Virus record (IMG/VR): IMGVR_UViG_3300037321_000157 | Coordinates: 1 to 42,545 of that record | Strand: one strand, 5' to 3' | Origin: a virus | Length of the DNA stretch: 42,545 nt | Shown: piece by piece, positions 7,617 through 20,451 of the stretch | How the letters are laid out: each line of letters begins with the position of its first letter | Numbering within the stretch: the first letter of the stretch is position 1 | Notes under the pieces: generated by a model | The model's input: the letters and a program-made list of their open reading frames with translations, nothing else | What the model was told of the DNA's origin: nothing | Database searches by the model: none | Program-made: the position numbers and the translations under genes

Positions 7617-7645
7617 TTGACGTGATATGCGAAATCGCATATTAC
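7617..7645 (+). promoter_or_regulatory. Promoter/operator of the hairpin cassette
   Basis: TTGACG (7617-7622), 17 bases, TATTAC (7640-7645). The operator palindrome ATATGCGAAATCGCATAT is at 7625-7642. The first hairpin starts 8-9 bases after the -10, so it would form the very 5' end of the RNA. Confidence 0.78.
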
Positions 7646-7652
7646 TAAAAAC

Positions 7653-7702
7653 AGCGGGCGGCCAAGAGGTCATCGAAACCCAGTAGCTTAACGCCGCCCG
7701 CT
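7653..7702 (+). ncRNA. Hairpin element 1 (30-nt loop family)
   Basis: Stem AGCGGGCGGC/GCCGCCCGCT, 10 bp perfect. Loop: C, aagaggtcat, CGAAACCC, agtagcttaa, C. It sits at the predicted transcription start. Confidence 0.85.
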
Positions 7703-7727
7703 ACAAAGGAGACACAGAATTCCAGAA

Positions 7728-7779
7728 TTGCGGGCGGCCACCCACACATCGAAACCCAGCACGCCTTCGCCGCCCGCAA
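7728..7779 (+). ncRNA. Hairpin element 2
   Basis: Stem TTGCGGGCGGC/GCCGCCCGCAA, 11 bp perfect. Loop: C, acccacacat, CGAAACCC, agcacgcctt, C. Confidence 0.85.
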
Positions 7780-7794
7780 CACCAACACGAGAGA

Positions 7795-7848
7795 TTAGCA
7801 GGCGGCCAGCAGCTTGTCGAAACCCAACCGTCCGCCGCCGCCCGCTAA
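7795..7848 (+). ncRNA. Hairpin element 3
   Basis: Stem TTAGCAGGCGGC/GCCGCCCGCTAA, 12 positions with one A-C mismatch. Loop: C, agcagcttgt, CGAAACCC, aaccgtccgc, C. Confidence 0.83.
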
Positions 7849-7868
7849 CACCAAAGTTTCCCGAGATA

Positions 7869-7914
7869 CGGGCGGCCATGGCGATCACGAAACCCTCTAG
7901 TCCGCCGCCGCCCG
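7869..7914 (+). ncRNA. Hairpin element 4
   Basis: Stem CGGGCGGC/GCCGCCCG, 8 bp perfect. Loop: C, atggcgatca, CGAAACCC, tctagtccgc, C. It ends 23 bases before the start codon of the next gene. Confidence 0.83.
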
Positions 7915-7937
7915 CAACCAACCAAAGGACCGACACC

Positions 7938-8501
7938 ATGACCGCAGCACGCAAGCACGTTACAGCCGCTAGGGATGTTTCGCTTCAATCAATCGCCGCC
8001 CGCCTGCTAGGCGAGGCCGGAGGCGACATAGGCAGGGCCGCGACGATGTTCGTGAACTACGCCAACAGCATCCCGCGCTATCGCGACGAAATGATGATGG
8101 TCGCCGCGAAGGCGCTACTCAACCAAGTGCCCGGCGCAATGCGCGCCACGATCCTGCGCGAACGAACGGGAAGCACCGTGCGCGCCACGCCGTACCGCGA
8201 GCCGGAGGCTGCAAAGGCGGCTAGGGCGCGAATGATGGGCGCGGGGCGCAACGCCATAAAATCGGCGCTCATGGGAATGCCTTACACCATCGGCGGGCTA
8301 TCCAAGCCGCTACGCGATTGGTCGGGCGGCGAGATTGCCGCGCACGGCGAGACGCAGCTTGCGACAGGCTCGACGGCGGTTCGCAACGCGCGCTATCTGA
8401 TCGCGGTCGGAACCGCCGCAGGCGCTAAGAAGATCGGCGAAGCGCTGGACGGCAGCGAAGTTGATCGGCTTTACAAGCAAGCCATGGAATCCGCTGTTTG
8501 A
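7938..8501 (+). CDS. Hypothetical helical protein of the hairpin cassette, 187 aa
   Basis: Function not recognised. The ATG at 7938 is preceded by AAAGGA, and upstream extension of the frame would run through the hairpins, so the short start is preferred. The protein is basic, Ala-rich and mostly helical by appearance, with no signal peptide, membrane segment or clear catalytic motif. Notable stretches are RAATMFVNYANSIPRYRDEMM, ILRERTGSTVRATPYREPE and RNARYLIAVGTAAGAKKI. It is flanked on both sides by hairpin elements (four before, five after) and shares their transcript with the IS110-like protein. RNA binding is possible from its charge and setting but is not shown by any motif. Confidence 0.8.
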   Translation: MTAARKHVTAARDVSLQSIAARLLGEAGGDIGRAATMFVNYANSIPRYRDEMMMVAAKALLNQVPGAMRATILRERTGSTVRATPYREPEAAKAARARMMGAGRNAIKSALMGMPYTIGGLSKPLRDWSGGEIAAHGETQLATGSTAVRNARYLIAVGTAAGAKKIGEALDGSEVDRLYKQAMESAV

Positions 8502-8507
8502 CGGCGG

Positions 8508-8559
8508 TAGGGCGCGGCCACGACAAGTGCGTAACCCCTGGCTTGACCGCCGCGCCCTA
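8508..8559 (+). ncRNA. Hairpin element 5
   Basis: Stem TAGGGCGCGGC/GCCGCGCCCTA, 11 bp perfect, differing from elements 1-4 by paired changes. Loop: C, acgacaagtg, CGTAACCC, ctggcttgac, C. The octamer has one substitution. Confidence 0.83.
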
Positions 8560-8563
8560 GAAA

Positions 8564-8624
8564 TTTGCTTGTCGGTGCCAGCACGTTATCGAAAACCGCG
8601 CGGCGCACGCGCCCGACAAGCAAA
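8564..8624 (+). ncRNA. Hairpin element 6
   Basis: Stem TTTGCTTGTCGGTGC with GCGCCCGACAAGCAAA, about 15 pairs with one bulged C and one G-T pair. It is almost unrelated in sequence to the other stems yet fully paired. Loop: C, agcacgttat, CGAAAACC, gcgcggcgca, C. Confidence 0.78.
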
Positions 8625-8630
8625 GCCTAA

Positions 8631-8674
8631 TTGCAGATATCCCGCACGCCACTAGTCGTGCGCTCCATCTGCAA
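8631..8674 (+). other. Outlier hairpin in the same array
   Basis: TTGCAGAT/ATCTGCAA (8 bp) encloses a 4x4 internal loop and an inner stem CGCACG/CGTGCG with an 8-nt apical loop. It has no CGAAACCC octamer. It lies between elements 6 and 7 with 6-base linkers, so it is part of the array by position but is a different structure. Confidence 0.6.
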
Positions 8675-8680
8675 ACCCCA

Positions 8681-8742
8681 AGCGAAGTCGGGCGGCCCAG
8701 GTCGCCCCGAAACCCACGCCCTTCTTGCCGCCCGACTTCGCT
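8681..8742 (+). ncRNA. Hairpin element 7
   Basis: The longest perfect stem, 16 bp: AGCGAAGTCGGGCGGC/GCCGCCCGACTTCGCT. Loop: C, caggtcgccc, CGAAACCC, acgcccttct, T, again exactly 30 nt. Confidence 0.85.
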
Positions 8743-8757
8743 AACCATCCGAAACAC

Positions 8758-8797
8758 GCGGCCACTTTGCCTCCGAAACCCATTAACGGCGCGCCGC
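8758..8797 (+). ncRNA. Hairpin element 8, short stem
   Basis: Only 5 bp of stem (GCGGC/GCCGC). Loop: C, actttgcctc, CGAAACCC, attaacggcg, C. It ends 18 bases before the IS110-like gene, so it may be degenerate or kept open near the ribosome-binding site. Confidence 0.7.
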
Positions 8798-8815
8798 TAA
8801 AAAAGGATAAAAGTC

Positions 8816-9940
8816 ATGTTTGACGCAGCACCAATGAACCCGGCGGAACTTGCCGCCATGGTAGAGCACACGCAAGAATACAGCACAAAGGGGGAGCGCG
8901 CTCGCGCCCGAAGTGTTAAGCGCAGCGCAAAACCAGAAGTCAATCGCCTTCGACGCATTCAAGAGAATGTCGAATCATCCAGCTTTCACGAATTCCCGGA
9001 AGCGGCATATCACTCGCCGCAATCCAAAGCGCCTGCGCCTCTTTCGGGAACACCCACGACCAGTCAGGCCAGGTCTGATTCGGAACCCATACTCACGACG
9101 CCTGACTGGTCAACCGGCCACATCACGCTAGGCCCATACGATCCCGAGCCCATCGCCGAAATTGTCGCCGAGATCGTGAGTCTGCACCGCCTGCGGCAAG
9201 GCATGATCAAGGCGCAAACGAAGCTCAAGTTGCAAGGCATGGCGTCGATCCGGTTCATGACGCAAACCGATGACGACTTCGCCAGCGACGAAGCCAAGGA
9301 AAAGGCGCGCAAGCGGGCCGATGACCTTTACCGGCAAGTCGTTGACGATCCGGCGCACCCCATGCACGCCAACGTCGCGCCCTATCTGCAAGCCATGGGG
9401 CCGCTCGACGCACAACGCGCCCTTTACGAGAAAGAACTTGTGAAAGCCGCCAAGCGCCTGCCCGTTTACGAATGGGTGAAAAGCGTCAAGGGATTTGGCG
9501 ACATTAGCTTCGCGTCAATCGTGGGCGAGTGCGGCGATATCGGCACATACAAGTCTGTCAGCGCCGTATGGAAGCGGCTAGGGCTTGCCGTTGTTGGCGG
9601 CAAGCGGCAGGGCGCTCCCGGCCTTGGTGCCACGGCGGAGGATTGGATAGCGCACGGCTACAATAGGCAGCGCCGGTCCATCAGCTACGTGGCGCGCGAG
9701 CATGTCATCGGCGGAATGGGTAAGTGGCGGCCCGCCATGGGCGGCGATCTTGCCGACGCGACCTACTATCAGCGCGTTTATGCCGAGCGCGCCAGGTATG
9801 AAGCCGAAAAGCTCGGCTTGCCCGTCACGGAAAGCGCAAAAGGCAAGGAAAGCTACAAAAAGCACGTTTCAATGCGCGCCCATCGCTACGTTGAAAAGCG
9901 CCTGCTTAAGCACCTCTACATCGAATGGCGTCGCGCCTAA
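8816..9940 (+). CDS. IS110 Tnp-domain-like protein lacking the RuvC half
   Basis: Residues 222-300 (VKGFGDISFASIVGECGDIGTYKS... VWKRLGLAVVGGKRQGAPG... GYNRQRRSISYVAREHVI) align by eye with the C-terminal Transposase_20 domain of IS110/IS116/IS902 transposases, including the helix-hairpin-helix. The C terminus (HRYVEKRLLKHLYIEWRR) resembles that of stand-alone phage proteins often annotated as IS110 transposases. Residues 1-110 are low-complexity. I see no N-terminal DEDD catalytic domain, and residues 115-215 look coiled-coil-like. It is therefore unlikely to be a complete recombinase. AAGGAT precedes ATG 8816. It shares a transcript with nine hairpin elements, which is why a bridge-RNA-like partnership is worth testing. 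Confidence 0.7.
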   Translation: MFDAAPMNPAELAAMVEHTQEYSTKGERARARSVKRSAKPEVNRLRRIQENVESSSFHEFPEAAYHSPQSKAPAPLSGTPTTSQARSDSEPILTTPDWSTGHITLGPYDPEPIAEIVAEIVSLHRLRQGMIKAQTKLKLQGMASIRFMTQTDDDFASDEAKEKARKRADDLYRQVVDDPAHPMHANVAPYLQAMGPLDAQRALYEKELVKAAKRLPVYEWVKSVKGFGDISFASIVGECGDIGTYKSVSAVWKRLGLAVVGGKRQGAPGLGATAEDWIAHGYNRQRRSISYVAREHVIGGMGKWRPAMGGDLADATYYQRVYAERARYEAEKLGLPVTESAKGKESYKKHVSMRAHRYVEKRLLKHLYIEWRRA

Positions 9941-9951
9941 CGGCGTGTCGC

Positions 9952-10003
9952 AGGCGGGCGGCCATTGAAAAAGCGAAACCCTTTCGTTTGCCGCCGCCCG
10001 CCT
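9952..10003 (+). ncRNA. Hairpin element 9
   Basis: Stem AGGCGGGCGGC/GCCGCCCGCCT, 11 bp perfect. Loop: C, attgaaaaag, CGAAACCC, tttcgtttgc, C. It starts 11 bases after the IS110-like stop codon and is followed by TTTT. Confidence 0.85.
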
Positions 10004-10062
10004 TTTCAGATTGCCCGCCGGGCCGCACGCGCTACCCCGGCCCCATGTAGCTCCCAGCAAAC

Positions 10063-10089
10063 CGCCCGCCTCACAAGCGGGCGTTTTTT
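10063..10089 (+). terminator. Intrinsic terminator of the hairpin cassette
   Basis: CGCCCGC, 7-nt loop, GCGGGCG, then six T. It closes the unit begun at the 7617 promoter. Confidence 0.85.
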
Positions 10090-10103
10090 ATGCGTTATCG
10101 CAT
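10090..10103 (+). promoter_or_regulatory. Free-standing operator
   Basis: ATGCGTTATCGCAT with no matching -35/-10 on either strand. Its centre is 33 bp, about three helical turns, from the operator at 10123-10136, suggesting cooperative binding. Confidence 0.65.
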
Positions 10104-10112
10104 ATTTTGTTG

Positions 10113-10141
10113 TTGACTTGATATGCGATAACGCATAGGGT
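10113..10141 (+). promoter_or_regulatory. Promoter/operator of the alanine-repeat gene
   Basis: TTGACT (10113-10118), 17 bases, TAGGGT (10136-10141, a weak -10). Operator ATGCGATAACGCAT is at 10123-10136. Confidence 0.65.
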
Positions 10142-10168
10142 TTAGATACGAACAACGGGAGCAAGACG

Positions 10169-11140
10169 ATGACCATTATAACTGAACGCATCGCCAAAAT
10201 CGAAAGCATCGCGCTCAAGTCCGGCGCTCACGACGATATCGCCCACGGTGCCTGTGTGATGGAAGCGGTAGCTTTCGTCGCTGGCGAGCCATGGACCGAT
10301 CATCCCGCATGTGCCTGCCCGGCCATCGGATCGTTCCTGCGCAACTGGAACGACAATCTGCCAGACGACAAACGGAATGAACTCTTGCGCCCCTTGGTCC
10401 CGCGCCTCGTCGGTACGCGCGGCAGCAAGGCGCTTGAACACCGCCGCGCCCTCATGTGCGCTGATTGGTTGGTGTGCGTCAATACACCTGCATGGCTGAG
10501 ACTGGCAAATCTCGATGCCCATGCCGACGCGCTGGCGTCCCTGCCCGAGATTACTGACATGGCGCAAGTGCCATCAATCCGGCCCGCTCTAGGGGCTGCG
10601 GCCGCCGCTGCGGACGCCGCTGTGGCCGCCGCTGGGACCGCCGCTGCGGACGCCGCTAGGGCCGCCGCTGGGGACGCCGCTTGGGAAGCCGCTGCGGACG
10701 CCGCTTGGGCCGCCGCTGGGACCGCCGCTTGGGCCGCCGCTAGGGCCGCCGGAGCGGACGCCGCTTGGGACGCCGCTGGGGCCGCCGCTAGGGCCGCCGC
10801 TAGGGCCGCCGCTTGGGACGCCGCTAGGGCCGCCGCTGCGGACGCCGCTTGGGACGCCGCTGCGGACGCCGCTGCGGCCGCCGCTGCGGACGCCGCTTGG
10901 GACGCCGCATATGAAGCCGCCGCTAGGGCCGCCGCTGGGGACGCCGCTTGGGAAGCCGCTGCGGACGCCGCTGCGGCCGCCGCTGCGGACGCCGCTTGGG
11001 ACGCCGCTGCGGCCGCCGCTGGGGCCGCCGCTGCGGACTCCGCTTGGGCCGCCGCTAGGGCCGCCCTAGCCCCCACCGTCGAGCATCTTCAGCAATCCGC
11101 ACTCGATCTCGTCAATCGCATGATCGAAGTAGCGGACTAA
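10169..11140 (+). CDS. Conserved phage protein with long alanine-rich repeat
   Basis: The first 140 residues form a conserved domain ([78 protein letters not shown]) that I recognise from uncharacterised phage and actinobacterial proteins. Residues about 142-305 are a four-residue repeat of [12 protein letters not shown] type, and residues 306-323 are a normal helix. The repeat should form one long Ala-rich helix with periodic Trp and Asp. The function of the family is unknown. The start ATG has GGGAGC upstream and stands behind a double-operator promoter, so it is an early or induced gene. Confidence 0.82.
10592..11083 (+). repeat. 12-bp degenerate tandem repeat in coding DNA
   Basis: Units of the form GACGCCGCTTGG, GACGCCGCTGCG and GCCGCCGCTAGG repeat about 40 times. 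Because the unit is a multiple of three, slippage would change length without breaking the frame. Confidence 0.85.
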
Positions 11141-11173
11141 ACGACGGCCACGCACTATTTTTTGGAGCCAATC

Positions 11174-11392
11174 ATGACCGGCAGACAAGCATACGACAGC
11201 GAAATAAACACAGCCTACTTCAACGCCCGCGTTCACGGCGAGCCGGCCGAGGCGCGTATCATGGGCATCCTGCGAGGCGGCTTTCTTCACAAAAGCGTTT
11301 TCTACGCCCACGCAGGACCGGCGCGCGGGGTTGTCCATGCGCCCGCCGCCGATCTTGACGAACTGCGTGTGCACGGGGAGGGGGGACGATGA
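11174..11392 (+). CDS. Hypothetical phage protein, 72 aa
   Basis: Function not recognised. The product begins MTGRQAYDSEINTAYFNAR. I chose ATG 11174 because TTGGAG, 7 bases upstream, is its ribosome-binding site. It ends in a TGA that overlaps the next ATG (ATGA). It follows the alanine-repeat gene by 33 bases and is probably in the same transcript. Confidence 0.65.
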   Translation: MTGRQAYDSEINTAYFNARVHGEPAEARIMGILRGGFLHKSVFYAHAGPARGVVHAPAADLDELRVHGEGGR

Positions 11393-11577
11393 ACGCCGTT
11401 AGCGCCGCGGCATATCGCGCGCGGTTCAGCGAATACGACCGCCAGCGCATTCTTGCCGACAAGGATCGCGGCGAGGAATTCTTTCGCAAGCATAGCGCGC
11501 CGTTCGACGTAATCGTGCGGTCGGCGCTTGATGCCGACATCGTTGTACGCGCCCGCAAGGAGGCTATCGATGTTTGA
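11389..11577 (+). CDS. Hypothetical charged protein, 62 aa
   Basis: Function not recognised. It is a short, charged, helical protein (RFSEYDRQRILADKDRGEEFFRKH). It is coupled to the previous gene by an ATGA overlap, with GGGGAGGGGGG upstream. Its end overlaps the start of a 38-aa membrane gene by 8 bases. Confidence 0.65.
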   Translation: MNAVSAAAYRARFSEYDRQRILADKDRGEEFFRKHSAPFDVIVRSALDADIVVRARKEAIDV

Positions 11578-11686
11578 CCTAGCAGCAATCCGCCAAGCCC
11601 TGCGCGACGACAAGATGGGATACCTCGCTGGCGTGATCGCCGGCCCGATTCTCTACCTCGGCTTTCAAATCGCGCTGATGTTGTAG
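11570..11686 (+). CDS. Small membrane protein, 38 aa
   Basis: MFDLAAIRQALRDDKMG is followed by a single hydrophobic helix (YLAGVIAGPILYLGFQIALML) running to the stop. A near-perfect AAGGAGG lies 6 bases before the ATG, supporting translation. Function unknown. It is the last gene of the plus-strand early unit. Confidence 0.6.
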   Translation: MFDLAAIRQALRDDKMGYLAGVIAGPILYLGFQIALML

Positions 11687-11932
11687 GCAAATATACAACA
11701 ATGCCTTCTTATTTTTGCAAATAAGCCGCCGCAATAAAGCCATACTTGCTTTGCGGCGGCACTAGCGTTTAACGTCGAATCAGGTGCTCGACAACCTTAG
11801 CGAGCCGCCTGAGTAGTTGCGTAAAAAAAGCGCAAAATTGCGCATGTCATATGGCTATACAAGCGCAACCTGCTTGCGGGCCGCGCCCCGTATCCGCAAA
11901 GACCCGGAAACGGGGCGGCGCTCGGCGTCGGT
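11687..11932. other. Non-coding gap with several strong hairpins
   Basis: This gap lies between convergent units. It holds GCCGCCGCAA/TTGCGGCGGC (11725-11760, 10 bp, 16-nt loop), TCAGG-GCTCG/CGAGC-CCTGA (11780-11812), the palindrome GCGCAAAATTGCGC near 11832, and CGCCCCGT/ACGGGGCG (11884-11917, 18-nt loop). None has a clear T tract. It may be a bidirectional termination zone or hold a structured RNA. No open frame is convincing. Confidence 0.45.
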
Positions 11933-12505
11933 TTAAGCCGCCAGCGCTTCCATCACGCCACGGTCCAAGTCGTGTAGCATTCCTACATTCCACACCGTGG
12001 CGTCTGCGGCCCCGCTACCGGCTTCGCTGATATGCCCGCCCGATATGCCGCCCCGGCCTTCGATGGCTATCACGCGCCCGCCCAGCGCCCGCACGGCGGA
12101 GTTCTCGTTGGGGAAGCGGCAATCGTCCACTGCAACGCGGCCACCTTGGCGAATAACGCGCGCGGCTTGCGCGCTCCATATATCAACCCAAAAGTTTGGA
12201 CCGATGCAATCGCGCCCCCATTCTGTACCAAGCGCCTGCATAGCGTGCCGTGGGGTTTTGCCTTGTAGCAGGACGCAAGGGGCCTCCTTCAAGTTCCCCT
12301 CGATTTCGGCGTCGTCTAGGCCGATGGCGCGCATCATGTCCTTTAACGGGCCTGCGAACCGCACGCGGGTGTAGCCGTGGCGCTCCACAAGGTAAGCCGC
12401 CGCGGTAGACTTGCCCGCTTGAGCGCGACCAGTGAAGGCGACAACGGCTGGCAGGTTGTCGTTGGAGGGTTCAAATGCGTGGGCTGCGCAGGGGGGTGTG
12501 GTCAT
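11933..12505 (-). CDS. Deoxynucleoside monophosphate kinase
   Basis: Phosphorylates dNMPs to dNDPs to feed phage DNA synthesis. The P-loop GRAQAGKS is at residues 26-33, followed by the lid-like RFAGPLKDMMRAIG and the family stretch ALGTEWGRDCIGPNFWVD, then VAVDDCRFPNE. At 190 aa it has the usual length for phage dNMP kinases. Its ATG overlaps the upstream stop (ATGA). It is the last gene of the operon started by the protease promoter and sits with other nucleotide-handling genes (HD nucleotidase, RNR remnant). Confidence 0.9.
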   Translation of the reverse strand: MTTPPCAAHAFEPSNDNLPAVVAFTGRAQAGKSTAAAYLVERHGYTRVRFAGPLKDMMRAIGLDDAEIEGNLKEAPCVLLQGKTPRHAMQALGTEWGRDCIGPNFWVDIWSAQAARVIRQGGRVAVDDCRFPNENSAVRALGGRVIAIEGRGGISGGHISEAGSGAADATVWNVGMLHDLDRGVMEALAA

Positions 12506-12861
12506 TGGGTGGGCTCCTTCTCGCGTTCCTTCACAGGCACCTTCGGCTCTTCCGGCCCCGTCCCGCGGTAACCATCAGGGTCCGTCAAAATGGCGCGCGC
12601 AAACCCCAGATGGTCGCTGACAAGCGGGCGGAAGCGCCGCGCGAAAAAAGGCGGGTCGTCGTAGCCGTAAGAGGGACACGCGCCGCGCTCTACGCCCACA
12701 AGACGCACGCCGATGTATTCGCCGTCCACGTAGGACTTGTAAGGGCCGACCCAACGAAGGGTGTAGACTTCGCCCTCCTTGATGCCTTGCGGGTTCGACA
12801 CATACTTGAATTCTGCGTCGATGCAGACGACTTGCTGGCCGGTGTGGAAGTGGTAGGTCAT
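12502..12861 (-). CDS. Conserved hypothetical phage protein, 119 aa
   Basis: The pattern FHTGQQVVCIDAEF...IKEGEVYTLRWVG...PFFARRFRPL matches a small SH3-like protein family frequent in alphaproteobacterial phages, with no known role. It overlaps both neighbours by ATGA-type junctions, so it is part of a coupled chain. The C-terminal Pro/Glu/Lys-rich tail is disordered. Confidence 0.75.
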   Translation of the reverse strand: MTYHFHTGQQVVCIDAEFKYVSNPQGIKEGEVYTLRWVGPYKSYVDGEYIGVRLVGVERGACPSYGYDDPPFFARRFRPLVSDHLGFARAILTDPDGYRGTGPEEPKVPVKEREKEPTQ

Positions 12862-13073
12862 TTGCCGGTCCCCGTGCTAGTCATGACGTGCCAGATATCG
12901 CGCCAGTCTGCCACTTGGCGCGTTGTGTCGCGCGCGCCTTCGATCCCGCCTAGTACGGCACCCAAAGCCGCGATGGGCGCCGCCACCAGAACGATAATGA
13001 CCGCAAACAACCACGCCATCGGTATGCGCAACCACGGCGATTTAATGCTCCACAGATTCCATTTAGCCCGCAT
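12858..13073 (-). CDS. Small membrane protein, 71 aa
   Basis: The ATG at 13073 (GAAGG upstream) gives MRAKWNLWSIKSPWLRIPMAW followed by one long hydrophobic helix (FAVIIVLVAAPIAALGAVLGG) and a charged tail. It overlaps the HD-domain gene upstream by 11 bases and the next gene by 4. Function unknown. Confidence 0.6.
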   Translation of the reverse strand: MRAKWNLWSIKSPWLRIPMAWLFAVIIVLVAAPIAALGAVLGGIEGARDTTRQVADWRDIWHVMTSTGTGK

Positions 13074-13653
13074 TGCCTTCCCCCCTTGCCAACATCCAAA
13101 ACGCCATGAGAAATTCGTCTTCCCCGCGATCCGGCTCCCAAAATTCCAGGGTGACGCGAAGCGGGTCGTCGTGGTTTGCGTGCCACACCATGGGCCGCAT
13201 GTTTTGCCGGATTTCGTCGGCAAGGATTCGCTCGTCGGCCTCGTGGACTTCGTGCGGCATATCGGGCGGCAAGCCGTACCGCTTGCAGATCGCGGCCATA
13301 ACGCCCGCCTCCGCGTCCTTGTACCCCGCCAGGTGTTGTTTAAGCGGGCGCGGCACGTCGGCAACGTAAGCCTCCGCCGCGTCGTGCATCAGTCCCCACA
13401 AGGCAACGCGGCGACCGTACCGCGGGCGGAGCCATCGTGCTATGCGGACGCTGTGCTCGGCGACGCTGTAGAAACGAAGCACATGGCCGCCATATCGACA
13501 TTGGTGCGCCAAGGCGTGCGCAATGTCCTCGATATGGACTTCATCCGGGTGCGCGTCCAGCGGCCAAAACTCCCGGCCGCTGAAGGTTTGCATGAATGCG
13601 CCGGGGCGCTTACAGGATGCCGCAGATGGGTTTGCGGCTTCACAAGTCAACAT
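13063..13653 (-). CDS. HD-domain phosphohydrolase, YfbR-like
   Basis: Probable 5'-deoxynucleotidase-type HD protein. Metal-binding residues are visible: His67 in SVAEHSVRIA, His90-Asp91 in GLMHDAAEAY, then VADVPRPLK. The later EADERILADEIRQ is also typical. The ATG at 13653 is chosen for its GGAGG Shine-Dalgarno 6 bases upstream, and gives 196 aa. An upstream extension would lie inside the phosphoesterase gene. A role in dNTP pool control fits its neighbours (dNMP kinase, RNR remnant). Confidence 0.85.
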   Translation of the reverse strand: MLTCEAANPSAASCKRPGAFMQTFSGREFWPLDAHPDEVHIEDIAHALAHQCRYGGHVLRFYSVAEHSVRIARWLRPRYGRRVALWGLMHDAAEAYVADVPRPLKQHLAGYKDAEAGVMAAICKRYGLPPDMPHEVHEADERILADEIRQNMRPMVWHANHDDPLRVTLEFWEPDRGEDEFLMAFWMLARGEGNAG

Positions 13654-14275
13654 CGAAAGCCTCCAATTCAGCAAGGCCACGAAACCGCGTTCGGCCGACA
13701 TTGTGATCCAGCGAAACATGCCAATGGCCGTGCACCCATAAGCGCGGCTGGTGGGTTTCAAGCATTCGCTGCAATGCGTGCCGCGTGCGGCTGCCGTCCT
13801 CGATTTTGCGCATTCGAAAAGCGGCGAGTATCGACGCCGCGATTGATTCCGGCGCTTCGTGCGTGATGACGATTTCCGGCTTGATGGCTGCGTATTCGTC
13901 AATCATGCGCTCAAGTTCTGCGTAGCTGCATTCTTCGTCGGGCCACCAATCAAAGCCCTCTGTTCGATAAGCGCGGTCAATGCTAACCGCGCCGCCGAGG
14001 CAATAGACGCCATCGACAACCGCGCCGTCCGCGATGCAATGAGGGTGTGCCACGCAGTCGGCGGGGTTGTCGTGGTTGCCCCTAATGAACAGGTGGCGCC
14101 CTTCCGACATAGCGTTGAAAGGAGGGTTGCCGGATATGGTGATTTCGCCGCCGTACAAGCGCCGAAACCCGACGCCCATATCTCCGGCCTGTATGCTAAA
14201 CGACACGTCGCGGATTAGCTCGCGGTAGGGCCTAAACTTCCCGTGAACGTCGCCGATAATTCGGATGGCTTTCAT
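13640..14275 (-). CDS. Calcineurin-like metallophosphoesterase
   Basis: The five metal-binding blocks of the family are present in order: GDVHG at residues 8-12, GDMG, GNHDN, THEAPES and HGHWH near the C terminus. The ATG at 14275 puts the first motif at the usual distance from the N terminus (211 aa). Its substrate is unknown; phage members can act on phosphoproteins or nucleotides. It starts only 7 bases after the truncated RNR fragment, suggesting a deletion brought the two together. Confidence 0.88.
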   Translation of the reverse strand: MKAIRIIGDVHGKFRPYRELIRDVSFSIQAGDMGVGFRRLYGGEITISGNPPFNAMSEGRHLFIRGNHDNPADCVAHPHCIADGAVVDGVYCLGGAVSIDRAYRTEGFDWWPDEECSYAELERMIDEYAAIKPEIVITHEAPESIAASILAAFRMRKIEDGSRTRHALQRMLETHQPRLWVHGHWHVSLDHNVGRTRFRGLAELEAFDVDL

Positions 14276-14282
14276 TCGCAAC

Positions 14283-14600
14283 TCATCCCCCCAGTTGCCG
14301 GGCGCGGTGCATGATACTAGATGCCTCCGGGTTGTCACGGCTAACGAAGGAATCTGGGATACTGCCGGATACATAACAGTTGTACGGCGTTACCGCTTTA
14401 GGCGACCCCATAGCGGCCTGCGCACGGCCCGCCGGCATAAAGCGCATATTTAACAATGCGTCGCGAAACGCATGGTAATGTTCGCTTGAGTCTTTGAGAG
14501 AAGACGCAATTCTGCCCATCGCGTCACGGAAGGTTTCGTGCGGCAATCGGTATTTTTCCGCATGAATCTGGTCGCTGTAAATTGAGATAGGTCCGTACAT
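14283..14600 (-). pseudogene. N-terminal remnant of ribonucleotide reductase
   Basis: The 105-aa frame reads like the beginning of a phage class II-type ribonucleotide reductase large chain: FRDAMGRIASSLKDS, LLNMRFMPAGRAQAAMGSPK, TPYNCYVSGSIPDSFV, then SIMHRARQLGG. In full-length enzymes this point continues into the conserved M/L-GGGIGYDFS segment and several hundred more residues with the catalytic cysteines. Here a stop falls inside that motif and another gene follows. It keeps an AAGGAA ribosome-binding site, so a short protein may still be made. It cannot be an active reductase. Confidence 0.7.
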
Positions 14601-14609
14601 TTTTATTCC

Positions 14610-15869
14610 TTAGATTGTGTTGTCGTTAGTAGCATGCCAGCCGCCGACCATGCCGGGAGACAGCGTGAGCCGCGCCACTTCGCCATGCCGCTTGCTGTAC
14701 GTGATGACCTTCGCGCTACGGCCCGATATCCAGCCGCCGTTGGACGCATAAGCGTCCGGCGCGGCAAGCGTTTCGTGCCGTTCGACTTTCATCAGGTTGG
14801 TGGATCGCAGCTCGTCCGAATGCAGGTGGCCAAGGTGCGCGTAGCTGAATTTCGTCTTGCCGTACATTTCACGGAACTTGCCCGCGAAAACGGAATCGAC
14901 GTTGCCGACCTTGCGCTTGTGGCCGTGGTGCACGAACAGCGAAACGTCGCCATGCTGATATCCGTAATATGTGCTTGACGAACTATCGACTGTCACGCGC
15001 GGCTCGTCGTCATAGAACGCGGCGAACATTTCCCGAAGCCACGCCTCGCTCGCCGGGTCGTGGTTGGCATCGGCCATGATGATGTGCACGTGGCTGTGCT
15101 TCTTAAGCAGCATCCCCACCACGCGCCGTAGCGTGCGAATGACTACCCTGATGACCTTCGGCAAACGGCTATCCGCGTCAAGGATGTGGCCACTGGTCGG
15201 CGTCTTCGATTCAAAGCCGTCGTAGTGGAGCAGGTCGCCGATCTGCGCAAAGATCGCTGTGTCGGCCGCCGGCGCAAGGTCGATTGCTGCCGCGAACCAA
15301 TCAAGCAGAAGCTTTTCCGCGATATCCAGATCGTAATCCGCGCCGGTTTCTTCGCGCCATGACAGCATCCCAAAGTGGGCATCGGTCACGGCGTACAGGT
15401 TGAGAAGTTCCGCCTCCGTGTTGCTTGGCGTGGCAACGGGCGACGCACGCGGCAACTCGTCCCGAAACCCCGCGGCTGCGGCTCGCATTGCGACAAGCGC
15501 GGCCTCGTAGCTGGGCTCGCTGATCATCCACCCGCCGACGCGCCGACCTTCGCCGTCAAGGTAAGCCGAATCGCGCTTTAGCGCGAAGCCTTCCGGCATG
15601 ATGTACGGCTCGGCCTCGCCCGCTTTTTGCTGTATATACTCTTTTTGCAGCTTCCCGTACGCGTCGCGCACGGCCGTGGTTTTGCTAAGGCGGAAGCCGG
15701 GCAAGACCGGCTTTGTGCCAAGCAACCCGCGCGACGCGGCCATGCGGATGTGGTGGCCTACGGTCCAATCCGACACGCCAAGTTCGGCGGCCGCTGCGAT
15801 ATTGGAAGCATGCCTGCCGCGCACCTCAACGGTGCGAAGCAGGGTCTTGTTTTCGATGGGGGGGGTCAC
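14610..15869 (-). CDS. Winged-helix plus metallophosphoesterase-like protein
   Basis: The N-terminal 60 residues contain an HTH (ASNIAAAAELGVSDWTVGHHIRMAASRGLLG). The rest has metallophosphatase signatures: DAHFG at about 163-167, GDLLHYDG at 211-218, then ANHDPAS, HHGHKRK and GHLHSDE. Proteins of this layout recur in tailed phages with unknown role. The GTG at 15869 is chosen because it overlaps the protease stop as GTGA; a start at 15977 would overlap that gene by over 100 bases. The product is 419 aa. The combination suggests a DNA-bound phosphoesterase or nuclease, which is inference. Confidence 0.8.
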   Translation of the reverse strand: MTPPIENKTLLRTVEVRGRHASNIAAAAELGVSDWTVGHHIRMAASRGLLGTKPVLPGFRLSKTTAVRDAYGKLQKEYIQQKAGEAEPYIMPEGFALKRDSAYLDGEGRRVGGWMISEPSYEAALVAMRAAAAGFRDELPRASPVATPSNTEAELLNLYAVTDAHFGMLSWREETGADYDLDIAEKLLLDWFAAAIDLAPAADTAIFAQIGDLLHYDGFESKTPTSGHILDADSRLPKVIRVVIRTLRRVVGMLLKKHSHVHIIMADANHDPASEAWLREMFAAFYDDEPRVTVDSSSSTYYGYQHGDVSLFVHHGHKRKVGNVDSVFAGKFREMYGKTKFSYAHLGHLHSDELRSTNLMKVERHETLAAPDAYASNGGWISGRSAKVITYSKRHGEVARLTLSPGMVGGWHATNDNTI

Positions 15870-16591
15870 CTGCCACCCCCGAACCGAACGCGCGGCGGCA
15901 ACCCAATGGCCTCCGGCGCGTGCAACGACAAAAACTCGTGGATTGCGTCCAGTGGCGTATGAAACCCGATGTGCCACATGCCGGTTATTACGCCCGTAAC
16001 TATCGCAACGATTTCATACTTGCCATCGGCTACGCGGTACACGCCGCCGCCGCTGTTGCCTCCGACAATGTTCGGCGTAGCGCGCATGTACTCCACGCCG
16101 TCGCGCGGCCAATCTATTGTTTCGTATCCGCCGAATCGCCCATCAGTTAGCGTAAGTCGCTGTCCGGCGGGATAACCCACGACAAACACCGGCTCGCCGA
16201 AAACAAGGTTGGCATTCAGGGGCGCAATTGCCGCGGTTTGCGCGAAGTGCGTCTGCTTATCCTTCAGTTCAAGCAGAGCAACGTCGTGCTTGAAGTGACG
16301 CGCGCGGACAGTGGCGACGTGCGAATCATAGCGCACAACGCGGTTGCTCTGGTATTGCGGCAGGTCAACGCGCTGCTCGCGCCCCGGCTTTGAAATGCAA
16401 TGCTTCGCGGTAAGCACGAGCGTCGTGACTTCTCCGCTTTCCTTGTCGCGGTCGGACCATATCAGCGTGCCGCTGCAATTGCCGTTGATCTGCGCCGAAA
16501 CGCCGAACATTTGGGTTTGCATTGCGTCGAGATCGGCGGCGTAAGCGGGCGCGGCCATTAGCAGCGCCGCAGCTAGTAGCGTGTACTTCAT
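15866..16591 (-). CDS. Secreted trypsin-like serine protease
   Basis: A cleavable signal peptide (residues 1-18, MKYTLLAAALLMAAPAYA) precedes a chymotrypsin-fold protease. The catalytic triad is visible as His64 in LTAKHC, Asp103 in KHDVALLEL and Ser180 in GGNSGGGVY. Cys39 and Cys65 flank the active site and could form the usual disulfide. At 241 aa it is a single-domain enzyme that should act in the periplasm or outside. I chose ATG 16591 because it begins the signal peptide. It is the first gene behind a strong operator-bearing promoter, so it is probably repressed in the lysogen. Its target is unknown. Confidence 0.88.
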   Translation of the reverse strand: MKYTLLAAALLMAAPAYAADLDAMQTQMFGVSAQINGNCSGTLIWSDRDKESGEVTTLVLTAKHCISKPGREQRVDLPQYQSNRVVRYDSHVATVRARHFKHDVALLELKDKQTHFAQTAAIAPLNANLVFGEPVFVVGYPAGQRLTLTDGRFGGYETIDWPRDGVEYMRATPNIVGGNSGGGVYRVADGKYEIVAIVTGVITGMWHIGFHTPLDAIHEFLSLHAPEAIGLPPRVRFGGGR

Positions 16592-16653
16592 TGTGTCAGT
16601 CCCCGTGGTGGTGGGTGGTGGTGGCGGCGCTTCGCGCACTTGCTGTTATTTCG

Positions 16654-16682
16654 ACTATATGCGTTTTCGCATATTTTGTCAA
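16654..16682 (-). promoter_or_regulatory. Strong leftward promoter/operator for protease operon
   Basis: Minus strand TTGACA (16682-16677), 17 bases, TATAGT (16659-16654), close to consensus. The palindrome ATATGCGTTTTCGCATAT is at 16657-16674. The -35 begins two bases beyond the T tract of the late terminator. Confidence 0.85.
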
Positions 16683-16683
16683 C

Positions 16684-16718
16684 AAAAAAAGCCCCCTTGC
16701 CGGTTAGGGCAAGGGGGC
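16684..16718 (-). terminator. Late-operon terminator
   Basis: Minus strand GCCCCCTTGCC, 6-nt loop, GGCAAGGGGGC, then a run of seven T. It ends late transcription just before the protease promoter. Confidence 0.88.
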
Positions 16719-16811
16719 AAGGGTCTCGCGCGGAAAGACCGAACGCGCGAGGGGACTTCGTGGCGGCGTTGGCCGCTATATCGGAATGAGACGGTGTAGC
16801 ATGGTTAGCTT
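16684..16811 (-). ncRNA. Candidate small RNA between promoter and terminator
   Basis: A minus-strand promoter at 16846-16818 and the terminator at 16718-16684 would define a short transcript of about 125 nt with no credible reading frame. It contains the hairpin CTCGCGCG/CGCGCGAG (16725-16751, 8 bp, 11-nt loop) plus the terminator hairpin. It could equally be the untranslated 3' end of the late transcript. Confidence 0.35.
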
Positions 16812-16817
16812 GTATTG

Positions 16818-16858
16818 AACATAAGCCGCGCAGCCGAGAACGTCAAGCGAAAACGCAT
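16818..16858 (-). promoter_or_regulatory. Possible leftward promoter with imperfect operator
   Basis: TTGACG (16846-16841), 17 bases, TATGTT (16823-16818). AAGCGAAAACGCAT at 16845-16858 is an operator with one mismatch lying just upstream of the -35. Confidence 0.45.
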
Positions 16859-16863
16859 ATTTT

Positions 16864-17262
16864 TTAGATCGAAAAAACCCGGCGAAAAAAATCCACTACT
16901 AGATCCTTGGAGCTATAAAGCGTCGCGCCAAAAAGCGCGCCTAACGTTGTAAGCGTCCCCGCAACAGCGTAGCCCTGCGTGCGCATCCTACGCAGAGCCT
17001 CGATGTCGGGCTCCATCGCTTCGACCTTTCGCAGCGTCGCGTGGCCCTCCGTGTGTGTCTGCTCAACTTTATGCTCAAGCGTATTAAGCCTGGCATGAAC
17101 GGCATCGCGACTTTCGTCGGCTTTTATTTCGCTCGCAGTCATGCGCGCCGACATGGCGGTGCGGGCCTCGTCGGCCTTCGCCTCCGATTTGCCTACCGCT
17201 ACAATCAAAGCGTCAAGCTTGCCCTCGATGTTTCCAATTGAGCGTTGGATATTATCATTCAT
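16864..17262 (-). CDS. Coiled-coil protein with C-terminal membrane anchor
   Basis: The 132-aa product starts with a long charged helix (IEGKLDALIVAVGKSEAKADEAR ... LEHKVEQTHTEGHATLRKVE) likely to be a coiled coil, followed by one hydrophobic segment (GYAVAGTLTTLGALFGATLY). It resembles DUF1515-type proteins found next to phage holins. As the last gene of the lysis cluster it may be a spanin-like or holin-associated factor, which is inference from place and topology. Confidence 0.7.
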   Translation of the reverse strand: MNDNIQRSIGNIEGKLDALIVAVGKSEAKADEARTAMSARMTASEIKADESRDAVHARLNTLEHKVEQTHTEGHATLRKVEAMEPDIEALRRMRTQGYAVAGTLTTLGALFGATLYSSKDLVVDFFRRVFSI

Positions 17263-17265
17263 AAG

Positions 17266-17631
17266 CTAACTCTTCCGAAAGTTTGTGACGCCGATAACGC
17301 CGAAAATGGCAATGACGATCAGGCCGGCCCATTCATCCAGCGGGGCGGGGAGAGCGGCGATGGACCACGGCTGCGGATAGGCGCAACCGGCGCACCAGAA
17401 GATTGAATAGACGATGACGGCGGCCCACCATACCGCCAGCGGCACGGCGAAAATCAACATCAACCACTTGCCGCCGCTGTTCATCCAATCGGCGCGCTTC
17501 GCATAATGCGCTTTGATGATGTCCGCCTTCAGCGCCTCGCGGTCGGTTTGCGCCGTGATGCGCTTGTCCACCGTCGAAAGCACGCGGTCCAGAATGCCGC
17601 CCGTTAGAAAGCGGAGGATGGCGGCGATCAT
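17266..17631 (-). CDS. Holin, 3TM gene-transfer-agent type
   Basis: The 121-aa protein has an N-terminal amphipathic helix (ILRFLTGGILDRVLSTVDKRI), a charged helix with AHYAKRADWMNSGGKW, and two clear membrane segments (LMLIFAVPLAVWWAAVIVYSIFW and AGLIVIAIFGVIGVTNF). This matches the GTA_holin_3TM family. It should form the membrane lesion that lets the endolysin reach the cell wall. Its start overlaps the preceding small gene as ATGA, and it is two genes after the endolysin. Confidence 0.8.
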   Translation of the reverse strand: MIAAILRFLTGGILDRVLSTVDKRITAQTDREALKADIIKAHYAKRADWMNSGGKWLMLIFAVPLAVWWAAVIVYSIFWCAGCAYPQPWSIAALPAPLDEWAGLIVIAIFGVIGVTNFRKS

Positions 17632-17831
17632 GTTGACCAGCCCAGGCGCTTGGCAACGGCGTAAGCACCCTCGACGATTGCCGCGAATAGCGCCCCTACC
17701 GCAACGGCAATCTCGCGCTCTAGCTCGGGGTCGTTGAGAATAACGCCCACTTCAGCGTTGCCCATCAGCCCATACGCGACAAGCACGCCGGAAAGATACC
17801 GCAGTGCTATGCGAACAATTACGCCAGTCAT
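17628..17831 (-). CDS. Small membrane protein of lysis cassette, 67 aa
   Basis: Two hydrophobic stretches (IVRIALRYLSGVLVAYGLM and IAVAVGALFAAIVEGAYAVA) are separated by an acidic turn. The size and place between endolysin and the 3TM holin suggest a second holin or antiholin. ATGA overlaps at both ends show tight coupling. Confidence 0.65.
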   Translation of the reverse strand: MTGVIVRIALRYLSGVLVAYGLMGNAEVGVILNDPELEREIAVAVGALFAAIVEGAYAVAKRLGWST

Positions 17832-18532
17832 GACTTGCCCCCGAATAGTTTACTAAGGATAGACGCAAGAATGGCCCAGAAGCCGCCTGTCGGCCCGCTG
17901 GGCGGCGCTACCGTAGGTGCGGGCGCAACGGTCGCCTTGCCGTAGCCTGCCGTCTGTAGCGCCGCGAGGAAGTCGCGATGGTATCCCGCGATAAGGTCCG
18001 CTTTGTCCGTGCCGTTTACGATGCGCCGCGCGTTCACGGGATCGTTGGTTGTGGCGCTGAAATAGTCGGCAAGCTTGCGGCTTGTAAACCATCCTTCCGC
18101 CATGCCCGCGTAAAGGATTGGCGCGGCATAGGCGGGGCGCAAGGCGAGGTCGGGTTTGCCGATCAGATCGATACCGAGAAGCTTGCCCGCCAAAGCGTAA
18201 TTGCGCCGGCCCGTGATTTGCACGAAACCACGGCCGGCATACTTCGCGCCATCGCCGGGGTTTGTGTTGCCGAGCACGCGCGCCACGTGCGGACGGTTGC
18301 CTCGGATATCGTACATGCGCGTGAAATAAGCCGTGCCGCCATGTTCCTTGATAGGCTGCATGGTGCGCGCCGTTTCGTGGATCGTGGTCGCGAGGCAGTA
18401 CGCAAGTTGGCGCACGTCCATACCCGCGGGCGCGGCGTCAAGCAGCGCGTCCATACCCTCGACCTGTGCTTGCGTTAGCGCGCCGCCAAAAGGGCGCGCG
18501 CGAACGTTCGCGAAAAATACATCGCGCTTCAT
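17828..18532 (-). CDS. Endolysin, GH19 chitinase-like
   Basis: Cell-wall hydrolase of 234 aa. The family motif with the catalytic Glu is HETARTMQPIKE, followed by GDGAKYAGRGFVQITGRRNY, the GH19 substrate-binding signature. A Pro/Ala linker and a hydrophobic C-terminal helix (GFWAILASILSKLFGG) follow, which may tether it to the membrane. The ATG at 18532 has an AAAGGAGA Shine-Dalgarno. No signal peptide is seen, so it needs the downstream holins. Confidence 0.88.
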   Translation of the reverse strand: MKRDVFFANVRARPFGGALTQAQVEGMDALLDAAPAGMDVRQLAYCLATTIHETARTMQPIKEHGGTAYFTRMYDIRGNRPHVARVLGNTNPGDGAKYAGRGFVQITGRRNYALAGKLLGIDLIGKPDLALRPAYAAPILYAGMAEGWFTSRKLADYFSATTNDPVNARRIVNGTDKADLIAGYHRDFLAALQTAGYGKATVAPAPTVAPPSGPTGGFWAILASILSKLFGGKS

Positions 18533-18548
18533 GGCAATCTCCTTTAAA

Positions 18549-19685
18549 TTAAGTGCTAAGCCCCATCGAGCGCGGGCTGCTGAATTGCGCGGGCGCGGCG
18601 GGTGCATTGGCGGGCGAGTTGGGTGCAGGGGTTGCTGTGGCGTCGCCGCCCTGCGCGCCGCTGCCAGATGCGCTCTTGCTGCCCGACGCGCCGTCGTAAA
18701 GCTTCATATCAAGTTGCGTGCGGTATCCGGCGCTTTTGCTGTAAGTGTGCGTTGCGGTTTCGATAACCCACGGCACGCCGTCAAGGCCGGGGCGGATGCC
18801 GTCGAATATCAGCGGCACGCCTGCGGTAATGGCTGTGTTGCCCGCCACGGCCACGCTGGCGCTACCCTCGCCGCGCTTTAGTTGGCGCGCCTTGGACTCG
18901 GCGGCCTTTTCCGCTTCGGATGGGTCCGCGAAAGGCTCGGGAATGCGGTAAACCGCGTCACCTTCCGGGTCGCCGTCAACCTCAATTTCAACCCGCTCGG
19001 CTTTGTCGCGGTCCTGATAGTAGGCCGCCACTTTGCCGAACGTGCTGCGGTCGTTGAATTCGAACGAAAGGCTGCCGACGATCACCAGCGGCGGCGTGAT
19101 GATGATCGCGCCCATAGGCGCGCCGGATGCGGATTCGCCGCTACCGCGCTCGCCGAAAACAAGGTTTCCGTCCTTGACCGTGAACAGCGCATTGTGCCGC
19201 CGCGCCAGCCGCTCCAAAAAGTGAATCGGCGTTTCGTTCTCCTGCGCTACCCACTTGTAAGGATGCGACGCGATGGATTCCGCGACCTTCGCCGAAAGCC
19301 CGGCTTCGCCCGCTATCTCCTCGACAATCTCGCCAAGCGTCTTGTCTTCGAAATGCCGCTCCGATGGCTCCTTTAGCTTGCCCTTGCGTAGATCGGCGGC
19401 CTTGCCGTTTATGGCGACGCTGTAGGGCAGGCACTTGGCGTTGATTTGGTCAACGGTAAACCGCCCCATTTCACGCACGCCGCCCTCGCGATACCCGAGG
19501 GAAGGAATAACGATTGCGCCCTTGCTTGGAAGGGCAAGAAAGTCGGGCGGGCCGTCGTTCAGCATGGCGTCGAACGTGTCGCTGCTAATGCCCTCCTTGT
19601 CCACGATTGACAACGATATTAATCGCTCATAAAAAGCGCCAGCGACGGGCGCGCCGTCAACGGTCAATTGGACAATTGGGTGCAT
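18549..19685 (-). CDS. D: P2 gpD-like baseplate hub protein
   Basis: The 378-aa product matches the late control/gpD family, a gp27-like hub that holds the tail spike. It has RFTVDQINAK..YSVAINGKAADLR near residue 90, FLERLARRHNALFTVKDGNLVFG, and the GVPWVIETATHTYSKSAGYRTQLDMKL end typical of the family. The last 50 residues are a Ser/Ala/Pro-rich tail. It follows gpX and gpU in the same order as P2. Confidence 0.88.
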   Translation of the reverse strand: MHPIVQLTVDGAPVAGAFYERLISLSIVDKEGISSDTFDAMLNDGPPDFLALPSKGAIVIPSLGYREGGVREMGRFTVDQINAKCLPYSVAINGKAADLRKGKLKEPSERHFEDKTLGEIVEEIAGEAGLSAKVAESIASHPYKWVAQENETPIHFLERLARRHNALFTVKDGNLVFGERGSGESASGAPMGAIIITPPLVIVGSLSFEFNDRSTFGKVAAYYQDRDKAERVEIEVDGDPEGDAVYRIPEPFADPSEAEKAAESKARQLKRGEGSASVAVAGNTAITAGVPLIFDGIRPGLDGVPWVIETATHTYSKSAGYRTQLDMKLYDGASGSKSASGSGAQGGDATATPAPNSPANAPAAPAQFSSPRSMGLST

Positions 19686-19686
19686 A

Positions 19687-19899
19687 TCAATCCCACAAAC
19701 TGACGAGCTTCAGGGCCGCCGCACGCGCCGCGATAACGGGAAGTACAAGCCGCGTGGCGAACGGCAAAACCGGGCCTAGCGCGGCAACGCCGGGATTGGC
19801 GGCAAGAACGGATTCTGTGACTTCGCGCGTGCGGCCGTAGTGGCGCCAGCAAACGAGGTCAACGGTTTCGCCCTGCCGTGTGGTGTACGTTGTGGCCAT
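19687..19899 (-). CDS. X: P2 gpX-like tail protein
   Basis: A 70-aa LysM-like protein (TYTTRQGETVDLVCWRHYG, VLAANPGVAALGPVLP) of the gpX family, needed for tail assembly. The ATG at 19899 follows the gpU stop closely. Its own stop TGA is one base from the gpD ATG. Confidence 0.88.
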   Translation of the reverse strand: MATTYTTRQGETVDLVCWRHYGRTREVTESVLAANPGVAALGPVLPFATRLVLPVIAARAAALKLVSLWD

Positions 19900-19903
19900 G
19901 GAA

Positions 19904-20350
19904 TCACCCAAACAGTTGCAAGAACGAACCCAACGGCGAATGCCCCGGCGCCGCGCCGTCGTAGCGCATTAGCTTGATCGAATAAGCGTTGCGCCGCGCT
20001 TCGCCGCGCGCGTCGATAAAGCTGCGGTCTTCCTCGACGCCGTGAATTGTAAAATACCCGTAGATATTGCCCGCGCTTGCGCCGCCCGAAACAAACATCA
20101 GCGGCTCGCCCGCATTCGCGGCGGCAATGATGCCGTCAAGGCTTGCCTGCCCGCCGAATTCCAGCGGGAACAACACGCCCTTGATTGTGACTTCCTCACG
20201 CTCCGGCCCCGTCCATTGCTGGCCGTTTAGCGCCTGCGCGACTTCGATATCGGCCCACGGCGTAACCGTGCGGCGTTGCAGGCCGTCGTAGCCGAAGCCC
20301 ATCGCTTCGAAGGCAAAAGGCCCTAGGGCCATTGAAACAGGGCCGGACAT
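19904..20350 (-). CDS. U: P2 gpU-like tail terminator/completion protein
   Basis: A 148-aa protein of the gpU family: MALGPFAFEAMGFGYDGLQRRTV, WTGPEREEVTIKGVLFP, the GQASLDGIIAAA segment and a C-terminal LGSFLQLFG. ATG 20350, with AAAGG upstream, is preferred. A longer frame would run back through the moron promoter and hairpin on the opposite strand. Confidence 0.88.
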   Translation of the reverse strand: MSGPVSMALGPFAFEAMGFGYDGLQRRTVTPWADIEVAQALNGQQWTGPEREEVTIKGVLFPLEFGGQASLDGIIAAANAGEPLMFVSGGASAGNIYGYFTIHGVEEDRSFIDARGEARRNAYSIKLMRYDGAAPGHSPLGSFLQLFG

Positions 20351-20366
20351 TGCGCTACCTTTAAGC

Positions 20367-20395
20367 TTGACATGGAATGCGAAAACGCATATTAC
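20367..20395 (+). promoter_or_regulatory. Promoter/operator of the moron
   Basis: TTGACA (20367-20372), 17 bases, TATTAC (20390-20395), with operator ATGCGAAAACGCAT at 20377-20390. From the -10 through the first hairpin bases the sequence is identical to that at 7640-7663. Confidence 0.82.
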
Positions 20396-20403
20396 TAAAA
20401 ACA

Positions 20404-20451
20404 GCGGGCGGCCAGGCACTGGTCGAAACCCACAAGCCGCACGCCGCCCGC
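20404..20451 (+). ncRNA. Hairpin element 10, at the moron transcript start
   Basis: Stem GCGGGCGGC/GCCGCCCGC, 9 bp perfect. Loop: C, aggcactggt, CGAAACCC, acaagccgca, C. It begins 9 bases after the -10 and ends 23 bases before the start codon. It is 10.4 kb from the other copies. Confidence 0.85.

Follow-up and report, generated by a model that had tools for sequence, protein, structure and literature searches.

What are hairpins with a constant frame and freely varying arms doing around one gene of a phage? The viral record IMGVR_UViG_3300037321_000157, positions 1 to 42,545 (hereafter the window, that is, the whole stretch of 42,545 nucleotides analyzed), carries such hairpins on both sides of, and within, an open reading frame (ORF) that we call tasA. 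An initial annotation, made from the letters alone, read them as guide RNAs because of their constant frame and variable paired arms. This reading is supported by the box frame of the hairpins, by their hypervariable spacers, and by the Tas/Nop-domain protein encoded in the gene that they surround. Our computational analysis, which covers the protein family, the anatomy of the units, their conservation across related loci, their nesting in the effector gene, and the turnover of their spacers, indicates with a probability of about 80% that the locus is an RNA-guided, stem-loop-array TIGR-Tas system of a temperate tailed phage.

All ten hairpins of the initial annotation were recovered in place on the plus strand by rereading and by a frame scan of the window, and the same scan returned zero units on the minus strand. 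The count itself was one short: an eleventh copy at 9058..9111 (12-bp stem, loop CGGAACCCA) lies inside tasA and had been overlooked because its octamer is CGGAACCC. The octamers of the other ten are as first described (CGAAACCC in eight, CGTAACCC and CGAAAACC in one each). The arms proved variable, as proposed, but not indivisible, each 10-nt arm being made up of the third base of a box C, usually A, and a 9-nt spacer. The frame shared by the 11 aligned copies is stem-CCA-[9 nt]-CG-NNNN-CC[A/C/G/T]-[9 nt]-[C/T]G-stem, with the first CCA replaced by CCC in one copy; a box C (CC[A]) and a box D ([C/T]G) are therefore present both at the edge and at the loop of the units.

All units lie on the plus strand. 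Four of them precede a small companion gene: unit 1 (7653..7702; spacer A AGAGGTCAT, loop CGAAACCCA, spacer B GTAGCTTAA), unit 2 (7728..7779; A CCCACACAT, B GCACGCCTT), unit 3 (7795..7848; A GCAGCTTGT, B ACCGTCCGC), and unit 4 (7869..7914; A TGGCGATCA, loop CGAAACCCT, B CTAGTCCGC). Between the companion gene and tasA are unit 5 (8508..8559; A CGACAAGTG, loop CGTAACCCC, B TGGCTTGAC), unit 6 (8564..8624; A GCACGTTAT, loop CGAAAACCG, B CGCGGCGCA), unit 7 (8680..8743; A AGGTCGCCC, B CGCCCTTCT, with a 16-bp stem), and unit 8 (8757..8798; A CTTTGCCTC, B TTAACGGCG, with a short stem). The nested unit at 9058..9111 (A GGTCTGATT, B TACTCACGA) stands in the tasA reading frame, and unit 9 (9952..10003; A TTGAAAAAG, loop CGAAACCCT, B TTCGTTTGC) follows the gene. 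Unit 10 (20404..20451; A GGCACTGGT, B CAAGCCGCA) is an orphan, far from the others, whose leader and stem are those of unit 1 and whose spacers differ. An extra hairpin between units 6 and 7 (8633-8675; GCAGAT...ATCTGC, with an inner GCACG/CGTGC stem) lacks the box frame and is possibly a decayed unit.

The hairpin family is not due to chance. Stem pairing reaches 93.9% in the 11 copies against 78% in shuffles, none of which attained the observed values, and it falls to 33-55% when the stem alignment is slid. Both sides have changed at six of the nine stem pairs with pairing kept. Across 1.39 Mb of DNA from related phages, a strict frame-plus-stem scan gave a single match away from a tasA locus (in L129), and in 306 kb of other phage DNA it gave zero matches. 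Beyond the window, a search with the TasA alignment retrieved 59 viral loci and one Rhizobium genome, and the frame-and-stem scan of this family counted 460 units in the orientation of tasA and 18 in the opposite one, some of the loci being duplicates of one phage. Units distant from tasA are rare, the window unit at 20404 being one such orphan. A second orphan guide, in another phage, was noticed at about 2834 of L129 (minus strand; record G029), far from its own tasA locus.

Among 218 family units, the spacer columns show 1.9-2.0 bits of entropy at all nine positions of each spacer, and the box columns are nearly fixed, in part because the scan's own rules impose this (a G-C box pair is one of its requirements). 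In box D, the first base at the loop covaries with that at the edge (CC in 115 units, TT in 60, mixed in 43). In the same 218 units, T is scarce at spacer position 3 (10% in spacer A and 14% in spacer B, against 17-32% at other positions), which could reflect a seed or a sequence rule.

Inverted repeats are common in phage intergenic regions, and it could be asked whether the hairpins are a dispersed DNA repeat, such as an attenuator or terminator family, with no guide function. This explanation is highly implausible: the spacers have a fixed 9/9 length within the box frame, the units occur almost exclusively around tasA and on one strand, most have no T run behind them, and their stems are conserved while their spacers are replaced. 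The initial annotation would have counted a lack of homologues with the same loop plan in favor of such a repeat; about 60 related loci carry units, so that argument falls away. The initial annotation recognized no named RNA family, and in Rfam nothing reached the gathering thresholds; the class was published in 2025 as TIGR stem-loop guide RNAs.

The protein at the center of the locus (374 amino acids; 8816..9940, plus strand) points to the same class. A single-sequence search of the PDB with TasA returned one chain, 9mty, a TasR structure (E = 8.6e-5), and a profile of 49 TasA relatives matched TasR 9mty at E = 9.3e-19, TasH at 9.4e-5, and Prp31 at 0.6. The NCBIfam model NF052498 (TIGR_Tas_endo) matched at E = 7e-19, under its curated cut-off. 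In an AlphaFold2 model, residues 113-374 are folded, with a predicted local distance difference test (pLDDT) score >90 over most of them, and the best PDB matches are TasH, then TasR, then IS110-type recombinases with bridge RNA; most of residues 1-108 are of low confidence or disordered, with no fold. Pfam detected no RuvC or HNH nuclease domain, and the model showed no fold in the low-confidence residues 1-108. Taken together, profile searches and the structural model identify the product as a Tas protein with a Nop domain, related to TasA, TasR, and TasH, and the lack of RuvC and HNH domains makes it TasA-like. We rejected TasR or TasH proper, as the N-terminal RuvC or HNH nuclease is missing, and also an IS110 transposase, as Pfam Transposase_20 stayed below threshold (14.5 bits against a cut-off of 21.3), NF033542 scored 38 against 140, and there is no DEDD domain.

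A view of how the spacers evolve comes from three related phages (L014, L015, and L016) in which syntenic units are kept. Among them, stems are 90-92% identical, linkers 71-81%, and tasA 85-86%, as against 18-33% for spacer A and 22-41% for spacer B. The upper spacer values belong to the pair L014/L015, which has one guide in common (with one mismatch), the only such case among distinct phages of the set. At its third codon positions, tasA is 66-67% identical in these phages, and the spacers have therefore diverged much faster. Identity in other close phage pairs is about 80% for flanks and 24% for spacers, and in units duplicated within one locus it is 92% and 32%, respectively; in two duplicated pairs the flanks match at 36 of 36 positions and the spacers at 2 and 7 of 18. 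Altogether, 600 of the 602 spacers are distinct. As judged from these sequence comparisons, units are inherited or duplicated together with their stems, and both spacers are replaced where they stand, down to an identity that is near random. The cause of this turnover may be strong selection on point mutations, loop exchange, or a dedicated process, and unit pairs with conserved stems are natural material for finding both the targets and the replacing process.

A second property of the family is that guides are built into the effector gene. Inside the tasA ORF lie 143 of 310 units, in 38 of 50 loci, sited in the N-terminal or the C-terminal tail of the protein; the nested unit of the window belongs to the N-terminal part modeled at low confidence and lies downstream of a start-proximal motif, MNPAELAAM, to which MNPADIAAM corresponds in L008. 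The 141 nested units downstream of the start codon are in phase 1 (84) or phase 2 (55) and hardly ever in phase 0 (2), whereas the 172 units outside the ORF are open in phases 0, 1, and 2 in 112, 134, and 127 cases. Counting one unit per locus, phase 0 is found in 2 of 38 (p = 2e-4). Distances between neighboring nested units favor multiples of three (43, 24, 12), which those between units outside the tasA ORF do not (31, 26, 22), and an alternating spacing of 55/56 or 61/56 in arrays yields a repeat of 111 or 117 nt, both divisible by three. That nested units contain zero stops in the tasA frame is circular, as this follows from the definition of the ORF, and it is therefore phase and spacing that carry the claim of nesting. 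When the frame ahead of the tasA domain was compared with the other two, its openness did not differ significantly, a result to which the overlap of the upstream gene, in another frame, probably contributes. By their phase and spacing, nested units are under reading-frame constraint. In four loci (L030, L040, L010, and L060), we noticed that the tasA tails are encoded by tandem guide units and read as Pro/Ala/Ser-rich repeats with one variable block per guide.

Nesting in an effector ORF is not described in the searched main-text passages of Faure et al., 2025 (PMC12045711). The in-frame placement of guides inside the gene of the effector that uses them suggests that a feedback is built in. 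It is conceivable, if somewhat doubtful, that one RNA serves as both TasA message and guide precursor, so that excision of guides would limit TasA synthesis, and that some process swaps both 9-nt spacers in place with the hairpin and protein frames intact.

If the locus works as other TIGR-Tas systems do, what would its guides recognize? From the C-5 rule and the 8-nt 3' overhangs of the published system (PMC12045711), we deduced an expected target layout of A-(0-2 nt)-reverse complement of B. Several results weigh against the RNA-guided TIGR-Tas reading. Matches in this layout (gaps 0-2) showed no excess over re-paired controls in the phage itself or in 2.0 Mb of related phages; when IMG/VR was scanned for exact matches to six window guides, five had 0-4 hits each and the sixth, which is AT-rich, had 32, in many unrelated AT-rich contexts; and TasA is remote in sequence from every characterized Tas protein, so that DNA targeting by the TasA clade would be carried over by analogy from TasR and TasH. 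Three other layouts, with gaps of -1 to 6, equaled re-paired controls in the own and related phages. No target was found for one guide in 120 genomes of the genus Rhizobium, for eight guides by BLAST against one Rhizobium host genome, for the one guide common to L014 and L015 in 61 genomes of the family, or in a phage BLAST with joined targets, for which no positive control was run. The non-random arm matches that the initial annotation proposed to look for did not emerge above chance from the phage, IMG/VR, or Rhizobium searches.

These searches also bear on the possibility that the guides aid phage integration or recombination by bending att or partner DNA, a role that Faure et al. (PMC12045711) propose for TasA because TasR bends DNA by about 180 degrees. 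The integrase gene at 5424-6578 lies near the array, and TasA is related to IS110 recombinases. We nevertheless regard this role as improbable, as the phage's own contig holds no guide match above chance and the fast replacement of all spacers would be unexpected for a fixed att site. Equally unlikely, in our view, is that the units guide TasA to RNA, in the manner of archaeal box C/D RNAs, either to regulate transcripts of the host or the phage or to work with a companion enzyme. Box C/D guides have the same layout as the units, TasA lacks a nuclease, the companion protein has no known function, and the spacers vary too freely for a conserved target; on the other hand, the nearest relatives TasR and TasH target DNA, TasR showed no action on RNA (PMC12045711), and no fibrillarin-like partner occurs among the window proteins examined.

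For an RNA-guided TIGR-Tas system acting on DNA, the following sequence of events can be proposed. One transcription unit, running from a promoter-like site at 7617 to a terminator-like hairpin at 10063, would make the guide units, the companion protein, and TasA, and orphan unit 20404 would be read from its own copy of the promoter-like sequence. By analogy with published TIGR-Tas work, the units would be excised as single hairpins, whose box C/D pairs at edge and loop would be held by a dimer of TasA in a ribonucleoprotein (RNP). Spacers A and B would then pair with opposite strands of a DNA site of about 18 bp with the layout given above, which TasA would bind and bend without cutting, because it has no nuclease domain. 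The likeliest role, which we put forward tentatively, would be to block loci of the host or mobile elements that compete with the phage, in an arms race that leads to repeated replacement of the spacers.

The promoter-like site at 7617..7645 (plus strand) reads TTGACG-17-TATTAC, with the palindrome ATATGCGAAATCGCATAT between the hexamers and a predicted start at the first hairpin, and an intrinsic-terminator-like hairpin with a T run (10063..10090, plus strand) ends the array and tasA unit. The second site (20367..20395, plus strand), before the orphan guide, reads TTGACA-17-TATTAC and carries a variant of the array-leader palindrome; in both leaders, then, the palindrome lies between TTGAC[A/G] and TATTAC at 17-nt spacing. 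A consensus promoter scan called neither leader site, that at 7617..7645 because its second hexamer lacks the final T. The palindrome ATATGCGATAACGCATA occurs at eight places (4539, 4607, 5189, 7625, 10088, 10121, 16657, and 20375; 13 matches on both strands against 0.06 expected), and copies of it flank a CI-like repressor gene at 4641-5162. The eight copies are likely a repressor regulon, which suggests that the guides would be off while the repressor is present, provided that this repressor binds the palindrome. Directly behind the orphan guide, in a region mostly read on the minus strand, there is a short ORF (20476-20789; about 104 amino acids) with a signal-peptide-like start.

The companion gene (7938..8501, plus strand) precedes tasA and encodes 187 amino acids; its relatives adjoin tasA in 34 of 54 loci, a count in which L072 is the same phage as L023. 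The AlphaFold2 model of the protein is confident and mostly helical (mean pLDDT 88), and searches of Pfam, PHROG, NCBIfam, PADLOC, PDB folds, and viral folds gave no match; the gene is a candidate for a missing component. Elsewhere, the phage encodes, besides the integrase, a methyltransferase, a Sak4-type recombinase, terminase, portal, capsid, sheath, and tape-measure proteins.

How, finally, does the locus compare with known systems? CRISPR-Cas was rejected, as the units have differing stems and split 9-nt spacers rather than identical repeats with single spacers of 25-40 nt, and PADLOC gave no match for TasA or the companion. Archaeal and eukaryotic box C/D guide RNPs (Nop5) share the Nop domain and two guide arms anchored by box C/D, but no k-turn/L7 or fibrillarin partner was detected here, and the window guides are hypervariable and carried by a phage. 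IS110 family recombinases with bridge RNA likewise share a Nop-like domain (the Transposase_20 region) and paired split guides in an RNA loop; in contrast to them, the window has no N-terminal DEDD catalytic domain, no transposon ends that we noticed, and many guides. Closer are the TIGR dual-repeat arrays with TasR or TasH, which have covarying box C/box D at edge and loop, 9-nt spacers, a Nop-domain effector, and a 9-nt loop repeat of the same plan (CG-NNNN-CCA here, UG...CCA there), whereas the window lacks a shared edge repeat, each unit having its own stem, and lacks a RuvC or HNH domain.

The closest match is with the stem-loop arrays of TIGR-TasA (PMC12045711; Peromyscus gut contig). 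Faure et al., 2025 (PMC12045711) describe, besides dual-repeat arrays, stem-loop arrays whose edges are palindromic and whose loop is in some cases conserved, report one TasA locus processed into single hairpins, and relate the covariation of edge and loop boxes to a symmetric dimer. Shared with the window are a nuclease-less Tas, hairpins in which box C and box D enclose two spacers of 8-12 nt, palindromic edges that vary in sequence, and several sub-arrays around the gene; the edges of our units can form a stem whose pairing is kept despite sequence change, as is characteristic of members of this class. In-place turnover, the companion gene, and an orphan guide with a promoter copy are absent from the main text of that paper as far as it was searched, and together with in-frame nesting they appear to be new here; they touch on spacer origin, array expansion, and the role of TasA, which Faure et al. 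name as open questions. Compared with the published stem-loop arrays, then, the window clade is set apart by having about half of its units inside the tasA ORF, under frame constraint, by its spacer turnover, and by its conserved companion gene, and the window phage by an orphan guide with its own promoter copy.

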